IMG/VR virus record: IMGVR_UViG_3300022542_000568
Coordinates: 1 to 23,040 of that record
Reading direction: 5' to 3' (one strand)
DNA: 23,040 nt
From: a virus
The notes under the pieces are model-generated. The model was not told where the DNA came from, ran no database searches, and saw only the letters and a list, made by a program, of their open reading frames with translations. Made by a program: the position numbers and the translations under genes. Shown here in pieces: positions 1,564 to 23,040 of this stretch (position 1 is the stretch's first letter; every line of letters begins with the position of its first letter).

Positions 1564-1619
1564 AATTATTAATACACTCTATTTTAATAGATTGTTTATT
1601 TGATTGTACTTTAATAAAA

Positions 1620-1643
1620 CTTTAAACAAAGTTGTACTATAAT
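1620..1643 (+). promoter_or_regulatory. Phage promoter motif driving the first replication operon
   Basis: CTTTAAACAAAGTTGTAC followed by TATAAT (1638-1643). This is a divergent copy of the motif seen at 1540, 6104 and 9665, differing in the stretch just before the -10 box. The leader to the ATG at 1711 is about 60 bases. It holds a small hairpin, ACGA-TTAT-TCGT (1656-1667), and CCC-AAAT-GGG (1687-1696) just before the AAAGGAAG ribosome-binding site. Between this promoter and the leftward one lies an AT-rich spacer with two GATTGT copies (1590 and 1602). Confidence 0.7.
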
Positions 1644-3355: not shown

Positions 3356-3387
3356 AGATCATACTATTAAAACCCAAGGACGAACTT

Positions 3388-3909
3388 ATGAAAAAGAAAA
3401 CAATATGGTTAGATTTAGAAACAACAGGTCTAAATCCAAATGAAAATGGAATTGTACAAATAGCAATGTTGGTTGAAATTGATGGTAAAATAGTTGATAA
3501 GTTTGAAACTAAAATGAATCCAGGTAAGGTTAAATTTAGTCAATATGCTTTAGAAGTAAATAAACTTACTAAAAAGAAAATTCAATCATATCCATCTAAA
3601 GAAGATGTAGTTAAGAAATTAGATATATTTTTAAATGAACATAAAATTAAAGATAAATTAACTATTGGTGGCTATAACGTTAAATTTGATATTAAATTCT
3701 TATCTAAGATCATTAACTTTACTAACTATTTTCATTGGTATGATGTTGATGTATTTGCTTTATTAAAAGTTAAAAGACAACTTGGTAAATACGATGGTGG
3801 TATGAAATTAGTAGAAGCATGTCAATACTTTAAAATTAAACATGACGCTCATGAAGCGATGTCTGACATTAAAGCTACTCGTAAACTATATAAAAAGCTG
3901 CTTAAATGA
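3388..3909 (+). CDS. DEDDh 3'-5' exonuclease (DnaQ/oligoribonuclease-like)
   Basis: A 173-residue protein of the DnaQ-like exonuclease family. Catalytic residues of the DEDDh set are visible: Asp9 and Glu11 in WLDLETTGL, Asp101 in GYNVKFDIKFL, and His155 and Asp160 in HEAMSDIKAT. These enzymes remove nucleotides from 3' ends with two metal ions. The polymerase downstream has its own exonuclease domain, so this protein may act in trimming, repair or RNA turnover. The ribosome-binding region is AAGGACGAAC (3376-3385). The 17 bases 3372-3388, ending on the A of the ATG, recur exactly at 21409-21425 inside a hairpin loop. It overlaps the next gene by ATGA. Confidence 0.88.
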   Translation: MKKKTIWLDLETTGLNPNENGIVQIAMLVEIDGKIVDKFETKMNPGKVKFSQYALEVNKLTKKKIQSYPSKEDVVKKLDIFLNEHKIKDKLTIGGYNVKFDIKFLSKIINFTNYFHWYDVDVFALLKVKRQLGKYDGGMKLVEACQYFKIKHDAHEAMSDIKATRKLYKKLLK

Positions 3910-6094: not shown

Positions 6095-6103
6095 TTAATT
6101 AAA

Positions 6104-6127
6104 CTTTAAACAAACTTTGATTATAAT
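6104..6127 (+). promoter_or_regulatory. Phage promoter motif, second plus-strand operon
   Basis: CTTTAAACAAACTTTGAT followed by TATAAT (6122-6127), starting 9 bases after the polymerase stop. It is identical over 24 bases to the copies at 1540 (minus) and 9665. Two AAACTTT words (6101 and 6112) lie exactly 11 bases apart, about one helical turn. The leader to the ATG at 6160 is about 25 bases. Confidence 0.75.
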
Positions 6128-9391: not shown

Positions 9392-9681
9392 GTGAAAGAT
9401 TAGAAAGTAGTATACAAGCTGAGATTATTAGAAAACTTAAAAAACGTAAAAAGAGTTTTACACATAAGCATCCAGCGGATCCACCTGGTTATCCAGATAT
9501 AGAACATCTTGAAAAAGGTAAACTATTCTTATTTGAAGTTAAGAGATCTGCTAAGCATAGACCAGCAGCCTTACAGTTATATAAAATGAAAGAGCTTAAA
9601 AAAGCAGGTGCAATTGTAAAAGTTGTTTGGTCATGGCAGCAAGTTGAAGAAATTCTTAATAAAACTTTAAACAAACTTTGA
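9388..9681 (+). CDS. VRR-NUC domain nuclease
   Basis: A 97-residue stand-alone VRR-NUC protein of the PD-(D/E)xK superfamily. Expected residues are present: Glu12 in IQAEII, Asp37 in PPGYPDI, Glu50 and Lys52 in LFEVKRS, and Gln63 in ALQLYKMKEL, followed by the GAIVKVVWS strand. Phage members are structure-specific endonucleases thought to act on branched DNA. I prefer ATG 9388 (ATGA overlap with the winged-helix gene) to the in-frame ATG at 9376. The last codons, encoding KTLNKL, lie within the promoter motif of the next operon, so the end of the protein and the promoter constrain each other. Confidence 0.9.
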   Translation: MSERLESSIQAEIIRKLKKRKKSFTHKHPADPPGYPDIEHLEKGKLFLFEVKRSAKHRPAALQLYKMKELKKAGAIVKVVWSWQQVEEILNKTLNKL

Positions 9682-9688
9682 TTATAAT
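9665..9688 (+). promoter_or_regulatory. Phage promoter motif, third plus-strand operon
   Basis: CTTTAAACAAACTTTGAT followed by TATAAT (9683-9688). It is identical to the copies at 1540 (minus) and 6104, with AAACTTT words at 9662 and 9673, 11 bases apart. It overlaps the last codons and the TGA stop of the VRR-NUC gene. The next ATG (9715) has ACAAGGAG upstream. Confidence 0.75.
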
Positions 9689-9714
9689 TGAACTATCAAA
9701 ACAAGGAGCTTTAA

Positions 9715-19263: not shown

Positions 19264-20760
19264 TTAAAACCTTGTTGGAGTACTCATATTAAGTTCTGTA
19301 GTTTTGAATTCAGCACCTAATGCTTCTGATACAGCTTGTTTAACCTGTTCAACATTTCCACCTTCAATGTTTATTGTTATATCATTTGTATTATTTGATG
19401 TATTTCCAGAAGCTAATGAAGGTTGCATTCTTACAGGTTGTGGAGCTTCAGTGATACCTAAAAATTGAGTAACTGTATCAAAAGCCTTACCTGTTGTATC
19501 TCCAGCTTCTCCAATAAATGAAGATGTTTTATTTTTTAAACTTTCAAAAGCATCTGTTACAGCATTAATCGGTGCCATTATAAAATCAGCAATTGCTTGA
19601 CCTATATCTTTAATTATAATAATCAATCCTTCAAATGCTGCTTCACCATCACTAAAAATTAATTGCCATCCTTGACCAACCATGGCTAGAACTTCGACAA
19701 TACTTTCTAATGCTATTCTAAATCCATCAGACTTTTTAGCTAAAGCACCCATTTGACTATCTGCACCATTTGCAAAAGCAACTAGATCTTCTATTAATAA
19801 AAATATAGCCGCACCTGCAGCAAGTATCAATACAGGTATCAATAATATTCTAGCATTCATTGCTAATAAGGCTGCAGAAACTGCACCAATAGCAATTTTC
19901 CATCCACCAAAAGAGTCAATAACTGTACTAATAACATTAACTACTCTTTTTGCTACATTAAAAAATGCTGTTATAACTTTTACAGCTGTTTCAAAAAATT
20001 CATTTAGATTTTGTTTTATAAGTTCTTTATTAACTTTAAACCATTCTAAAAATGCATTGATCATCGGCGTAATTTGTTTCATCAACTTTGTACCAATAGC
20101 TGAAGATATACCTTTAACTACCGTTGTTACACGTAACATCTCGTCATTAAACTTTGCCGCAGAAGCTGTCGCATCCTTATCTAATACAAAACCTAAGGCC
20201 TCAACTTCTTCGCGTTGTCTACGTATAGCAGCTGATCCCTGCTCAAGTGTTAGAAGTAATGATGAGTCAATACCTAACTTACTTAACAATTCTAATTTTT
20301 GTGATTGTGAATTTAGCTTTGATATAGAGTCAGCAACATCAAGTAGAAGATCATCGGCTTTTTTAATATTGCCTGAAGCATCTGTAGTACTAATACCTAA
20401 TAAACCAAATGCTTCAACACCTGCACCTAAACCTCTAGCAGCTTCAGATGATACTTTAGCTAGATTTTCCAATGATGAATTCATTGAATTAATAGATCCA
20501 CCGTTAAGTTCTGCAACAAAACCAAGCTCATTCATAGCTTGAGCAGTTATACCAATGATTTGTGCAGTCTTACCAATTTCATCATTTTGTTCTGCAATTT
20601 TAGAAGTGAAAGCGAATATAGCTGCACCTGCAGCAGCAGCACCGGTAGCTACTACAGCAACTGCTTTTGAAGCATCTGCCATACCTTTATTGAATTTCTC
20701 TAAACCTTTACCGTCAAAGTCAAATGATAATTTAGCAACTAATGAGTCAATAACAACCAT
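19264..20760 (-). CDS. Tape measure protein
   Basis: A 498-residue tail length-determining protein. It is mainly helical, with an Ala/Gly-rich hydrophobic segment near residues 32-51 and a second near 305-330 (ILLIPVLILAAGAAIFLLIE), as tape measures carry for membrane entry. N-terminal SLVAKLSFDFDGKGLEKFNK and IIGITAQAMNELGFVAELNG are typical. The C-terminal end (NDITINIEGGNVEQVKQAVS) is the common tail-tip end of phage tape measures. At roughly 0.15 nm per residue it predicts a short tail of about 75 nm. It follows the chaperone frameshift gene and has AAAAGGAA before its ATG. Confidence 0.9.
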   Translation of the reverse strand: MVVIDSLVAKLSFDFDGKGLEKFNKGMADASKAVAVVATGAAAAGAAIFAFTSKIAEQNDEIGKTAQIIGITAQAMNELGFVAELNGGSINSMNSSLENLAKVSSEAARGLGAGVEAFGLLGISTTDASGNIKKADDLLLDVADSISKLNSQSQKLELLSKLGIDSSLLLTLEQGSAAIRRQREEVEALGFVLDKDATASAAKFNDEMLRVTTVVKGISSAIGTKLMKQITPMINAFLEWFKVNKELIKQNLNEFFETAVKVITAFFNVAKRVVNVISTVIDSFGGWKIAIGAVSAALLAMNARILLIPVLILAAGAAIFLLIEDLVAFANGADSQMGALAKKSDGFRIALESIVEVLAMVGQGWQLIFSDGEAAFEGLIIIIKDIGQAIADFIMAPINAVTDAFESLKNKTSSFIGEAGDTTGKAFDTVTQFLGITEAPQPVRMQPSLASGNTSNNTNDITINIEGGNVEQVKQAVSEALGAEFKTTELNMSTPTRF

Positions 20761-20779
20761 GAGAAATTCCTTTTACAAT

Positions 20780-20788
20780 ATTATATCA
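20780..20788 (-). promoter_or_regulatory. Possible extended -10 box before the tape measure gene
   Basis: TGATATAAT on the minus strand, a TGn-TATAAT match whose TGA is also the stop of the frameshifted chaperone. It lies 20 bases before the tape measure ATG. It may supply extra tape measure transcript or be chance in AT-rich DNA. Confidence 0.2.
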
Positions 20789-21372
20789 CTTTTTCTTATT
20801 AGCTTCTTTATTTGCTAAATGTTCCGCCTCTAATTTTAAATTTAAAGCTTCATGAAAATCATGGAGATCTGATAAAGTATATACAGTTCTCAACTCATTT
20901 AACGTACACAATCCTTCTATAATAGGTCTATAGATAAATAGATCTATATTTAATTCTCGAGGTTCTGATTTACCTCTTGGAATATTGAATTTAATCCGAG
21001 CTTTCCCAGCACGTCACTGAAGTTAACCTCTAAAATAAATAAAGCAACTAACCACATATCTGTTGTCTTACCAGAAAAATATGTATTGAATTCAACCGGT
21101 GTATCTATTGGATGACCTTCAGCAACTTTAACATAGAAAATACCCTTTTCAAATAACTTAGTAATTAATGATATAACGTTATGATCATCAATATTATCTG
21201 TTAATTTTGAAATAGCTTTTTTAACACTATCTTTGTCAGCACCACCTGATAATTCACCAAATGATCCACCTAAAATTCTTATTAACTTTGATTGTATACT
21301 TAACGCAGTAAGCGCATCCATTGTAGTAACCTTATAAGTTACGCCATTAATTGTTTTTGACTCTTGTTTCAT
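20786..21372 (-). CDS. Tail assembly chaperone, -1 frameshift product (GT-like)
   Basis: This is the extended form of the gene at 21372-20950. Translation in the zero frame for 124 codons to the slippery GGGAAAG (21007-21001), followed by a -1 shift, continues with GCT CGG ATT. It adds 71 residues (ARIKFNIPRGKSEPRELNID... LANKEANKKK) to a TGA at 20786, for 195 residues in all. The -1 frame has no start codon and is closed by a TGA at 21016-21014, four codons before the site, so it is reachable only by frameshift. The layout matches lambda G/GT: just upstream of the tape measure, same heptamer. The T part should bind the tail tube protein while the G part binds the tape measure. Confidence 0.85.
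20950..21372 (-). CDS. Tail assembly chaperone, zero-frame product (G-like)
   Basis: A 140-residue tail assembly chaperone between the tube and tape measure genes. The helical protein starts MKQESKTINGVTYKVTTMDA, with LTALSIQSKLIRILGGSFGE following. The family resemblance (short gp24/DUF-type Mu/Pam3 tail chaperones) is modest, but position and the internal frameshift site are diagnostic. Ribosome-binding site AAGGACGAAC (21383-21374) is complementary to the loop of the hairpin just upstream (21390-21448), so initiation may be regulated. After the slippery site this form has only 16 further residues. Confidence 0.85.
   Translation of the reverse strand: MKQESKTINGVTYKVTTMDALTALSIQSKLIRILGGSFGELSGGADKDSVKKAISKLTDNIDDHNVISLITKLFEKGIFYVKVAEGHPIDTPVEFNTYFSGKTTDMWLVALFILEVNFSDVLGKLGLNSIFQEVNQNLEN
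21001..21007 (-). promoter_or_regulatory. Slippery heptamer GGGAAAG for -1 frameshift
   Basis: In the chaperone zero frame the codons are CTG GGA AAG, giving the X-XXY-YYZ site G-GGA-AAG, the same heptamer used by phage lambda G/GT. A weak hairpin, GAGGT/ACCTC (20959-20976), follows about 24 bases downstream. No strong pseudoknot is evident, as in lambda. Confidence 0.85.
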
Positions 21373-21389
21373 TGTTCGTCCTTTTAAAA

Positions 21390-21448
21390 TAGATTAATGA
21401 GAGAACATACCCAAGGACGAACTTAAAGTATGTGCTCACATTAATCTA
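21390..21448 (-). promoter_or_regulatory. Long hairpin with loop complementary to ribosome-binding sites
   Basis: The two 21-base arms (21390-21410 and 21428-21448) pair at 19 positions: 10 bp, a mismatch, 3 bp, a mismatch, then 6 bp. The 17-base loop in the late (minus) mRNA contains GTTCGTCCTT (21422-21413). This is exactly complementary to AAGGACGAAC at 21383-21374, the ribosome-binding region of the chaperone gene 18 bases before its ATG end. The order arm-loop-arm-RBS means the loop-RBS pairing would compete with, or make a pseudoknot on, the hairpin. The same loop region is complementary over 17 nt to 3372-3388, the start region of the early exonuclease. A translational control element is inferred. 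Confidence 0.6.
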
Positions 21449-21456
21449 CGATATAG

Positions 21457-21480
21457 GTATAGAGAAATTAATCTCTATAC
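21457..21480 (-). terminator. Hairpin at the end of the tube gene
   Basis: GTATAGAGA (21457-21465), loop AATTAA, TCTCTATAC (21472-21480): a perfect 9-bp stem that includes the tube gene's TAG stop (21477-21475). No U-tract follows on the minus strand, so it is more likely an mRNA 3'-end protector or partial attenuator. That would help make more tube than chaperone. Confidence 0.45.
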
Positions 21481-21894
21481 AATAACCATAGTACCAAAAT
21501 CTGTTCTGAATGTAAATTCAACAGCATTAGCATTTTGTCCACGAACAATATCTGGAGATTTAGAAATCCAAGCATTGTTTCCAACAAATGTTTCTCCAGT
21601 CTCTTTATTGATAACTGTTAATGGCAATACATTAGCACCAGTTTCACGATCTAAATTGTAAAGAGTCATTAGATCTTTATAACTTTGTGAAGTTTGTAAA
21701 AGCTTAACAGTACATGTTGCACGATTATCATTTGTTTGAGTACGTGTAACATCACCTTTAGCACCAGCAACATCAGTGAATTGATCAGTATCAAAAGTGA
21801 TATTGACAACATCGTCACCTTCAGCAAATCCTTGAATTTCAAGAATTCCGAAGATAACATTTACGTTAGTAAAAGAATAATTTCCAAATGCCAT
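21475..21894 (-). CDS. Tail tube protein, DUF3277-like
   Basis: A 139-residue major tail tube protein. The DUF3277 pattern is visible: YSFTNVNVIFGILEIQGFAE at the N-terminus, DTDQFTDVAGAKGDVTRTQT with DNRATCTVKLLQTSQSYKDL following, NAWISKSPDIV, and a final strand VEFTFRTDFGTMVIV. Hexamers stack to form the inner tube. It sits between sheath and chaperone as in Mu-like and Pam3-like tails, with AAGGAGC upstream of the ATG. Its stop lies within a stable hairpin. Confidence 0.88.
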   Translation of the reverse strand: MAFGNYSFTNVNVIFGILEIQGFAEGDDVVNITFDTDQFTDVAGAKGDVTRTQTNDNRATCTVKLLQTSQSYKDLMTLYNLDRETGANVLPLTVINKETGETFVGNNAWISKSPDIVRGQNANAVEFTFRTDFGTMVIV

Positions 21895-21904
21895 TTATAG
21901 CTCC

Positions 21905-23040
21905 TTATATTGATACGATACCACGGACGATAATAGTATTAATACCGCCTGTAAGTTCTGCAGTGAATGTTCCACCAGGTAATTTACGATCATCTCTATC
22001 AGTTTGATCTACATCAGCTCTTTTAGGAAAGAATGTAACAACTGTTTGATCTACAAGAATACCTTGATTTACACCATATGTTTGTAGAAGTGTTTTTAGA
22101 CGTGTATCTACAATTGTAATACCACCATCTGTAAATGGAATAATATCTTTTTCAAGTAAAAGACTCATTAAACCTTCTTCAACACGTGCTTGAAGAAAAT
22201 CAATATTGATGATGATGTCGATATATTCACCTTCTTTATCAATATTCTTACCACCAGTCATAGTGCCAAAATAAATAAAATCAGCACCAAGTGTTGTAGT
22301 ATAAACATTAACATTAACATCTTCAGCAGCATCAATTTGAGTCTGTGTAAGATTTGATGTTTCAATTTCTTGAGTTGCGCCTTGTGCAATACCGGCTAAA
22401 GTTTTATAAGCCCAGTTAGTTGATCCAACATCTTTAGGAAGTTGTTGACCCATCCAAGACCAATCAGGATAAACTAAATCATTATCATGATAAGTTAATG
22501 AAGTACGTTTATAGTTTTTAGCTTTAAGTATTGCAGCTAAAGAGGCTGATGAACCAAGAACTAAAGTATTTGCATCATTTGTAACAGCAATCATAATATT
22601 GCGATTAGACTCAATTTGATCAGCAAGATCTTCAGTGAATTGAATATCTCTTAAAGCTTTAATAAGACCTAAAGCATACCAAGAGTTATTAGCATTTTTA
22701 ATTGCAAGTAACATCTCAGCAGCTGTTTCAGCAATTTGACCTTGAGATAATAATGATCCACCTGGATTAGAAGGAGATTTAATAACATCACCATCTAAGA
22801 AACCTGTACCGCTAATATCTGTACCAGCTGGAATTGCAACAGTTTGAAGTAGTGTAATAGTTGAAGTAATGCCAGTTGTATCACTTGTAAATACAAAGCG
22901 ATTAATAACATAAGCAACACTTACACCAGCTGTTCCAAGTGAAATAACGCTTGCTACATCATCAAGACTTGTTACACCTGAAAAATTCAAACCAGTTACA
23001 TCAACAAGTCCACCATCAATAGTTACACCAAATTCACCAT
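21905..23040 (-). CDS. Tail sheath protein, DUF3383-like (N-terminus outside window)
   Basis: At least 378 codons of a contractile sheath protein. The C-terminal two thirds match DUF3383 sheaths: RTSLTYHDNDLVYPDWSWMG, then GSTNWAYKTLAGIAQG, VNVNVYTTTLGADFIYFGTM, EYIDIIINIDFLQARVEEGL, FTDGGITIVDTRL and DRDDRKLPGGTFTAELTGGI. The frame stays open to the window edge (GEFGVTIDGGLVDVTG precedes NFSGVTSLDDVA), so the TTG at 22990 is internal, not a start. By family, the sheath contracts to drive the tube and spike into the cell. It is the first tail gene visible in the leftward late operon. Confidence 0.9.
   Translation of the reverse strand, partial: GEFGVTIDGGLVDVTGLNFSGVTSLDDVASVISLGTAGVSVAYVINRFVFTSDTTGITSTITLLQTVAIPAGTDISGTGFLDGDVIKSPSNPGGSLLSQGQIAETAAEMLLAIKNANNSWYALGLIKALRDIQFTEDLADQIESNRNIMIAVTNDANTLVLGSSASLAAILKAKNYKRTSLTYHDNDLVYPDWSWMGQQLPKDVGSTNWAYKTLAGIAQGATQEIETSNLTQTQIDAAEDVNVNVYTTTLGADFIYFGTMTGGKNIDKEGEYIDIIINIDFLQARVEEGLMSLLLEKDIIPFTDGGITIVDTRLKTLLQTYGVNQGILVDQTVVTFFPKRADVDQTDRDDRKLPGGTFTAELTGGINTIIVRGIVSI

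Follow-up and report, generated by a model that had tools for sequence, protein, structure and literature searches.

Which ribosome-binding site might the late message of this phage target? The question arises from a 17-base sequence, ACCCAAGGACGAACTTA, that occurs exactly at two places in the window (the whole stretch of DNA analysed, a virus record of 23,040 bases with 31% G+C). Replication genes lie mostly on the plus strand of this record, and the late tail operon lies on the minus strand. One copy, at 3372–3388 (+), covers the Shine–Dalgarno (SD) region of an exonuclease gene (3388–3909 (+); PHROG 192, Pfam RNase_T) through the A of its ATG. The other, at 21409–21425 (+), is opposite the strand of the late message, inside a strong hairpin between a tail tube-like gene upstream (21475–21894 (–); PHROG 280, Pfam KPP10_Orf10) and a tail assembly chaperone gene directly 3′ of the hairpin (20950–21372 (–); PHROG 1613; Pfam Phage_TAC_15, 77.3 bits with a cut-off of 22). 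An initial annotation, which placed both copies correctly, proposed that late RNA acts as an antisense repressor of early exonuclease translation.

The match as a whole is not a product of chance. No further site for ACCCAAGGACGAACTTA is present in the window at up to two mismatches, and the sequence occurred in none of 100 shuffles. The argument from improbability, which holds for the entire 17-mer, is nonetheless weaker than it looks, because AAGGACGAAC is a recurrent extended SD. This 10-mer is found also at 21374–21383 (–), ahead of the chaperone gene, and AAGGACGAA lies at 1521 (–), ahead of the helicase gene. The exonuclease SD is thus the chaperone SD 10-mer plus seven further matching bases. 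Given the core, the probability of the seven extra flank matches is 0.007 (by resampling of window contexts), and a small excess beyond SD usage remains that the shared core does not explain. AAGGACG is a favoured SD form in the phage family of the window: by simple gene calls, the starts preceded by it number 3 of 31 in the window, 4 of 55 in contig G004, 2 of 54 in G005, 10 of 57 in G006, 3 of 66 in G009 and 3 of 31 in G010. It is the most frequent AAGGANN SD in G006 (L035, L036), where many of the 10 genes concerned sit outside the late operon. Judging by these sequences, most of the exonuclease match is shared SD usage.

The minus strand from 21340 to 21480 folds into a strong hairpin (–38.2 kcal/mol, z –5.3). 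Its 5′ arm of 24 nt (21426–21449 (–)), paired at 22 of 24 positions with two mismatches, and its 3′ arm (21389–21412 (–)) are predicted by the fold and supported by covariation in relatives. The predicted loop, UAAGUUCGUCCUU, comprises 13 nt (21413–21425 (–)) rather than the 15 nt of the 17-mer previously described as displayed there; the remaining four bases, ACCC, belong to the stem. Inside the loop, abutting the 3′ arm, is an anti-SD, GUUCGUCCUU (21413–21422 (–)). The chaperone copy of AAGGACGAAC, separated from the stem by a linker of 5 nt, is a perfect 10-nt complement of the loop. This partner, the SD of the adjoining gene, had been overlooked. A consensus scan of 21300–21600 found no intrinsic terminator (a G+C-rich stem followed by a U run), and we reject the reading of the hairpin as a transcription terminator on that basis. 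Rfam returned 12 weak matches in 20700–22000, none near the gathering threshold. A second, smaller hairpin is located right at the tube gene end (21457–21480 (–)); many relatives also have another hairpin at this position, several with a TTCG loop.

To place the element in a wider context, we gathered relatives by IMG/VR scans with the chaperone, tube, exonuclease and sheath proteins. The 33 phages compared are the window and 32 relatives with a readable tube end and chaperone start, the two genes being side by side. Loci without a complete tube–chaperone junction (L064, L065, L073, L074, L077, L090, L097, L101, L103, L106 and L108) were omitted, as were repeats of contigs already counted (L060, L069–L071, L102 and further loci). 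The tube–chaperone gap is 89–117 nt in 14 phages and 9–37 nt in 19. All 14 long-gap phages carry the hairpin, with a loop complementary over 7–12 nt to the SD region that follows it. The 19 short-gap phages have no space for the hairpin and lack the element. Each of the 14 elements, in several sequence versions, has the marks of cis SD sequestration, namely a segment of the same mRNA complementary to the SD and compensatory change. On a tube-protein tree of the 33 phages, the hairpin label needs four changes, of which well-supported branches force only one, so gains and losses are not countable.

In the ten closest phages (the window, L005, L006 and L008–L014), the loop core AGTTCGTCC is invariant (10/10) and the stem varies. 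RNAalifold predicted 24 pairs for these sequences, and for 10 of the pairs at least one sequence carries a change on each side. Across the 14 elements, loop and SD come in matched versions: TTCGTCCTT/AAGGACGAA in 10 phages, TATCCTTTGT/ACAAAGGATA in L068, TCCTCATT/AATGAGGA in L024, TCACCTCATT/AATGAGGTGA in L091 and TTTCTCCT/AGGAGAAA in L107. The L024 and L091 versions are similar, and each loop fits the other's SD, so these may count as one. When nine loops were set against the SDs in a cross-matrix, pairing was high only within a version and low between versions. Loop shuffling gave P values for own pairing of at most 0.0016 in 11 of the 14 elements, the others being 0.0096 (L024), 0.037 (L005) and 0.036 (L107). 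The loop does not follow every SD change, as the common loop is kept in L008 and L013 (SD AAGGACGG) and in L011 (SD AAGGACGAGA); in L005, a change in the loop halts pairing after 7 nt. Stems have 20–27 pairs in 12 elements, and 12–14 pairs plus branches in L024 and L091, where the loop region is branched and less like the others. These last two phages also have two copies of AATGAGG before the chaperone start (L091 4634–4740, L024 4839–4932), each complementary to the loop, an arrangement in which one SD might be masked and the other remain in use.

The loop–SD relation is also specific to this junction. We scanned 37 sources, 401,421 bases in all, for ORF starts preceded by a hairpin whose loop and the SD share 8 nt of complementarity. 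The scan returned 10 start codons in nine sources, every one at the chaperone gene (9 of the 12 hairpin-bearing sources in the set), and no such device away from a chaperone start. Decoy scans gave 1, 0, 1, 0 and 1 hits with shuffled SDs and 0 with reversed ones. Hairpin-bearing L005, L006 and L038 fall below the scan thresholds, and L091 and L107 were found after the scan. A pattern scan for loop plus SD across all IMG/VR contigs yielded ten stretches, eight of which are tube–chaperone junctions. Two other candidates from it were set aside: L026 falls within a coding region, and L028 is an unrelated contig end with a similar hairpin and no start codon afterwards. On the strength of the scan and the relatives, we reject chance as the source of the loop–SD relation. 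The end of an unrelated 41-kb contig (G012; L041 1–120) has a hairpin loop with GTTCGTCCTT, followed by AAAGGACGAAA, with no start codon nearby.

How does the exonuclease fare as a target? We searched for its gene by tblastn (E 1e-3) in five nearly whole contigs besides the window (G004, G005, G006, G009 and G010, with G009 searched minus 595 nt). The gene was found in G004 and G010; in the same search it was not found in G005, G006 or G009. All three contigs in which no exonuclease gene was found keep the hairpin with its invariant loop, and G006 looks complete, because the sheath gene spans its two contig ends. G010 stops short of the tube–chaperone junction. In G004 and G010 the flanks of the exonuclease SD have drifted (AAAAAGGACGAATA and TATAAGGACGGACATT), with AAGGACG retained and the 17-mer lost; the 17-nt match is therefore private to the window. 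Pairing between the two loci is thus not conserved in these relatives, where the proposed target is either not found (3/5) or drifted (2/5), and one site has changed with no corresponding change at the other, the loop being the same in the close phages. We accordingly reject the exonuclease as a conserved target of the loop.

Repression of the exonuclease by late RNA does have points in its favour. The window holds the 17-nt complement of the exonuclease start region, the predicted loop:SD duplex is strong (–17.2 kcal/mol in the window, –16.8 kcal/mol in G004), and AAGGACG lies within the SD of all three exonuclease genes found. Yet the hairpin and loop are retained where no such gene was found, four of the 17 nt belong to the stem, and the loops of L068, L024, L091 and L107 have other sequences, each fitted to its own SD. 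Taken together with the loss of the 17-mer in relatives, these observations make the exonuclease barely credible as the main target; a side effect on it may occur, perhaps only in the window. What survives of the antisense idea is that the late hairpin loop is antisense to a ribosome-binding site and conserved as such. The exonuclease SD region, for its part, has the shared extended SD and is not conserved as a loop partner.

We favour the view, at a probability of roughly two in three, that the hairpin (21389–21449 (–)) is a cis-acting RNA element of the late tail operon in which loop–SD pairing gates chaperone translation. The loop anti-SD would pair with the SD of the directly downstream chaperone gene, and ribosome binding there would be held back. 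The anatomy may be that of an H-type pseudoknot, in which stem 1 would be the inner part of the hairpin and stem 2 the loop with the SD. The 12 unbranched elements (all except L024 and L091) have an anti-SD that reaches the 3′ arm or stops no more than 3 nt short of it, and a short, often U-rich stretch precedes this anti-SD. The linker from stem to SD is 0–10 nt in 13 of the 14 elements and 19 nt in L091. The order of segments fits an H-type pseudoknot, but a linker of 0–10 nt (13/14) is too short for the full stem. Hence the full stem and the loop–SD helix would hardly coexist in a single molecule; for both to form, the stem would have to open at its base.

Energy estimates bear on which state prevails. 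The loop:SD duplex is predicted at –10.8 to –16.0 kcal/mol in 12 elements. Pairing of the SD with an assumed 16S tail sequence comes to –5.3 to –5.7 kcal/mol for nine SDs, –9.0 kcal/mol for L008 and L013, and –13.1 kcal/mol for L024. The difference between pseudoknot and full hairpin ranges from –3.1 to +5.6 kcal/mol in nine elements, a rough estimate built on an assumed pseudoknot penalty and a home-made geometric rule. In eight of the nine, the full hairpin is the predicted ground state, by 1.2–5.6 kcal/mol, and the SD is then free. This counts against the gate, since the predicted ground state leaves the SD unmasked. So do the SD changes that the common loop fails to follow, the branched loop regions of L024 and L091, the 19 of 33 phages that manage with no such element, and the nine named-phage loci described below. 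As the two states lie within a few kcal/mol of each other on this rough estimate and would hardly coexist, we read the element as a poised switch. With the hairpin closed, the SD would be free and translation on; with loop and SD paired, translation would be off. We infer repression as such, the direction of the gate and its trigger, which might be ribosomes upstream, cleavage of the long stem by RNase III, a protein of the phage or the transcript level. Tail chaperone and tail tube are encoded by neighbouring genes, and the amounts that phages require of the two are very different. The likely purpose of the gate would be to keep the chaperone, needed in small amounts, low beside the highly made tube protein.

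Two other readings make the SD complementarity secondary. Stems of about 22 pairs suit RNase III, and the hairpin might be a site of RNase III processing or RNA stability between the tube and chaperone messages. The stems here have about that length, with a mismatch often near pair 11–13, and a strong stem is preserved through compensatory change. This gives no reason for the loop to follow the SD from one sequence version to the next, and we regard it as improbable. More improbable still is that the loop serves as a protein-binding operator whose likeness to an SD complement is a by-product. Such an operator would be consistent with the AG of AGTTCGTCC, which is invariant (10/10) although most SDs do not pair with it. 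However, the consensus fold pairs AAG with CUU at the base of the loop, which could explain the invariance, and the joint change of loop and SD argues against a protein site.

An extension of the gate reading deserves separate consideration. The loop may act on two SDs of the late operon, that of the adjoining chaperone gene and that of the gene immediately following the major capsid gene, some 4 kb further 5′ in the same transcript, through long-range or intermolecular pairing. To assess this, we ranked as many as eleven orthologous late genes per locus, each with a readable start, by how well their SDs match the loop. Eight loci, covering four sequence versions, contain both the chaperone and the post-capsid gene, and in all eight these are the two best loop partners. 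In G006, which is split over two loci, each ranks top in its own locus, and the match between loop and post-capsid SD extends to 11 nt in L068. The run shared by the chaperone and post-capsid SDs is 9, 9, 13, 13, 9, 12, 7 and 7 nt in phages with the hairpin, versus 6, 8, 7, 6, 6, 5, 6, 5, 8, 10 and 4 nt in those without (P = 0.0026, rising to 0.05 once the main family is counted as one and doubled contigs are removed). The value of 7 for L024 is a hand count for the start used in the partner ranking (the other start gave 6), two of the values without hairpin (L044 and L060) represent one contig, and the comparison omits L067, which has no post-capsid ORF, and L099 and L105, for which no chaperone start was set.

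On the other side, L024 and L091 each have another gene that comes close behind, and G006 has several other genes with a better loop match than either candidate. Hairpin-less L079 shares a run of 10 nt, and the post-capsid start has no hairpin of its own. Moreover, these genomes favour AAGGACG and AAGGATA as SDs, and the sharing may come down to plain SD usage. We therefore hold action on both SDs to be rather unlikely, and treat the post-capsid gene as a possible lead, not a result. If borne out, the late mRNA would carry its own antisense hub, with one loop and two SDs whose pairing, over a long range or between mRNA molecules, would tune the genes for head and tail assembly together, a tentative picture to which we give the same low weight. 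Under this hub reading, loop and both SDs would change together between phage lineages.

We then turned to named phages. None was found to be a relative at the DNA level. The element did not appear in nine named-phage loci with similar tube genes (at most 36% identity), and six of these nine have a junction sequence free of any such hairpin, although other hairpins are present in Hafnia phage Zyzzx and Listeria phage B054. In the remaining three (MW202816, pOW20-A and FP_Brigit), the annotated tube–chaperone gaps are about 10 nt. The L107 chaperone has no match in named phages. Among genome contigs, a first scan gave no match and a second scan gave one partial locus without the junction. In Zyzzx (L115 2939–3014), a gap of 76 nt separates the tube and chaperone genes and a simple hairpin is predicted to cover the SD region, which may be another way of answering the same need.

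Two further features of the window were noted in passing. Close to the chaperone gene end, GGGAAAG was read by eye at 21001–21007 (–), in the frame G GGA AAG; this heptamer is the slippery sequence of phage lambda G/GT. A –1 shift there would extend the chaperone ORF to a stop at 20786, ahead of the tape measure gene. A repeated promoter-like sequence, AAACTTTAAACAAACTTTGATTATAAT, is present at 1539–1563 (–), 6101–6127 (+) and 9656–9689 (+), partially at 1611–1630 (+), and also upstream of the G004 helicase gene.

If the gate reading is true, a loop that mirrors the neighbouring SD and co-evolves with it would be a compact, sequence-flexible way of setting the chaperone:tube ratio, and a rare phage case of SD control via a loop–SD helix. 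The natural versions offer a ready-made test set, because each loop would be expected to affect only the SD of its own version. Our search of the open-access literature, subscription papers being outside its scope, found no such element at tail chaperone genes.

Related devices are known elsewhere. Pseudoknots at or near the SD occur in preQ1-type riboswitches and the rpsO operator, and staphylococcal RNAIII acts in trans through an unpaired segment complementary to SDs. Unlike the preQ1 and rpsO cases, the phage element has no known ligand pocket or ribosomal protein. The rpsO pseudoknot is also named in a paper on the gene 32 leader of phages T4, T2 and RB69, in which gp32 binds a pseudoknot located 67 nt ahead of the start and from there extends across the ribosome-binding site (PMC3014915). 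As described there, this is likewise a phage mRNA leader structure that controls translation of the next gene, and an H-type pseudoknot is proposed for our element too; in the latter, however, the SD itself would be a helix strand. Closer in one respect is the aapA3 type I toxin mRNA of Helicobacter pylori, in which an upstream anti-SD masks the SD in cis through competing folds (PMC6733600). Both systems have the anti-SD segment upstream on the same mRNA as the SD. In aapA3, anti-SD and SD form a plain nested hairpin, whereas the phage anti-SD is in the loop of a separate long hairpin. The phage element also belongs to a structural operon, for which neither a toxin nor an antisense RNA is known. 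Pneumococcal csRNAs use unpaired SD-complementary segments in trans (PMC4387999). These and RNAIII are separate small RNAs, whereas the phage segment is part of the operon mRNA, beside its own partner SD. Gene 32, aapA3 and the csRNAs all differ from the architecture seen here, in which the loop of a long hairpin carries an anti-SD and the SD that it matches follows directly, at a tail chaperone gene. Within this company, the phage element looks, from its sequence and that of its relatives, like a cis SD-sequestering element.
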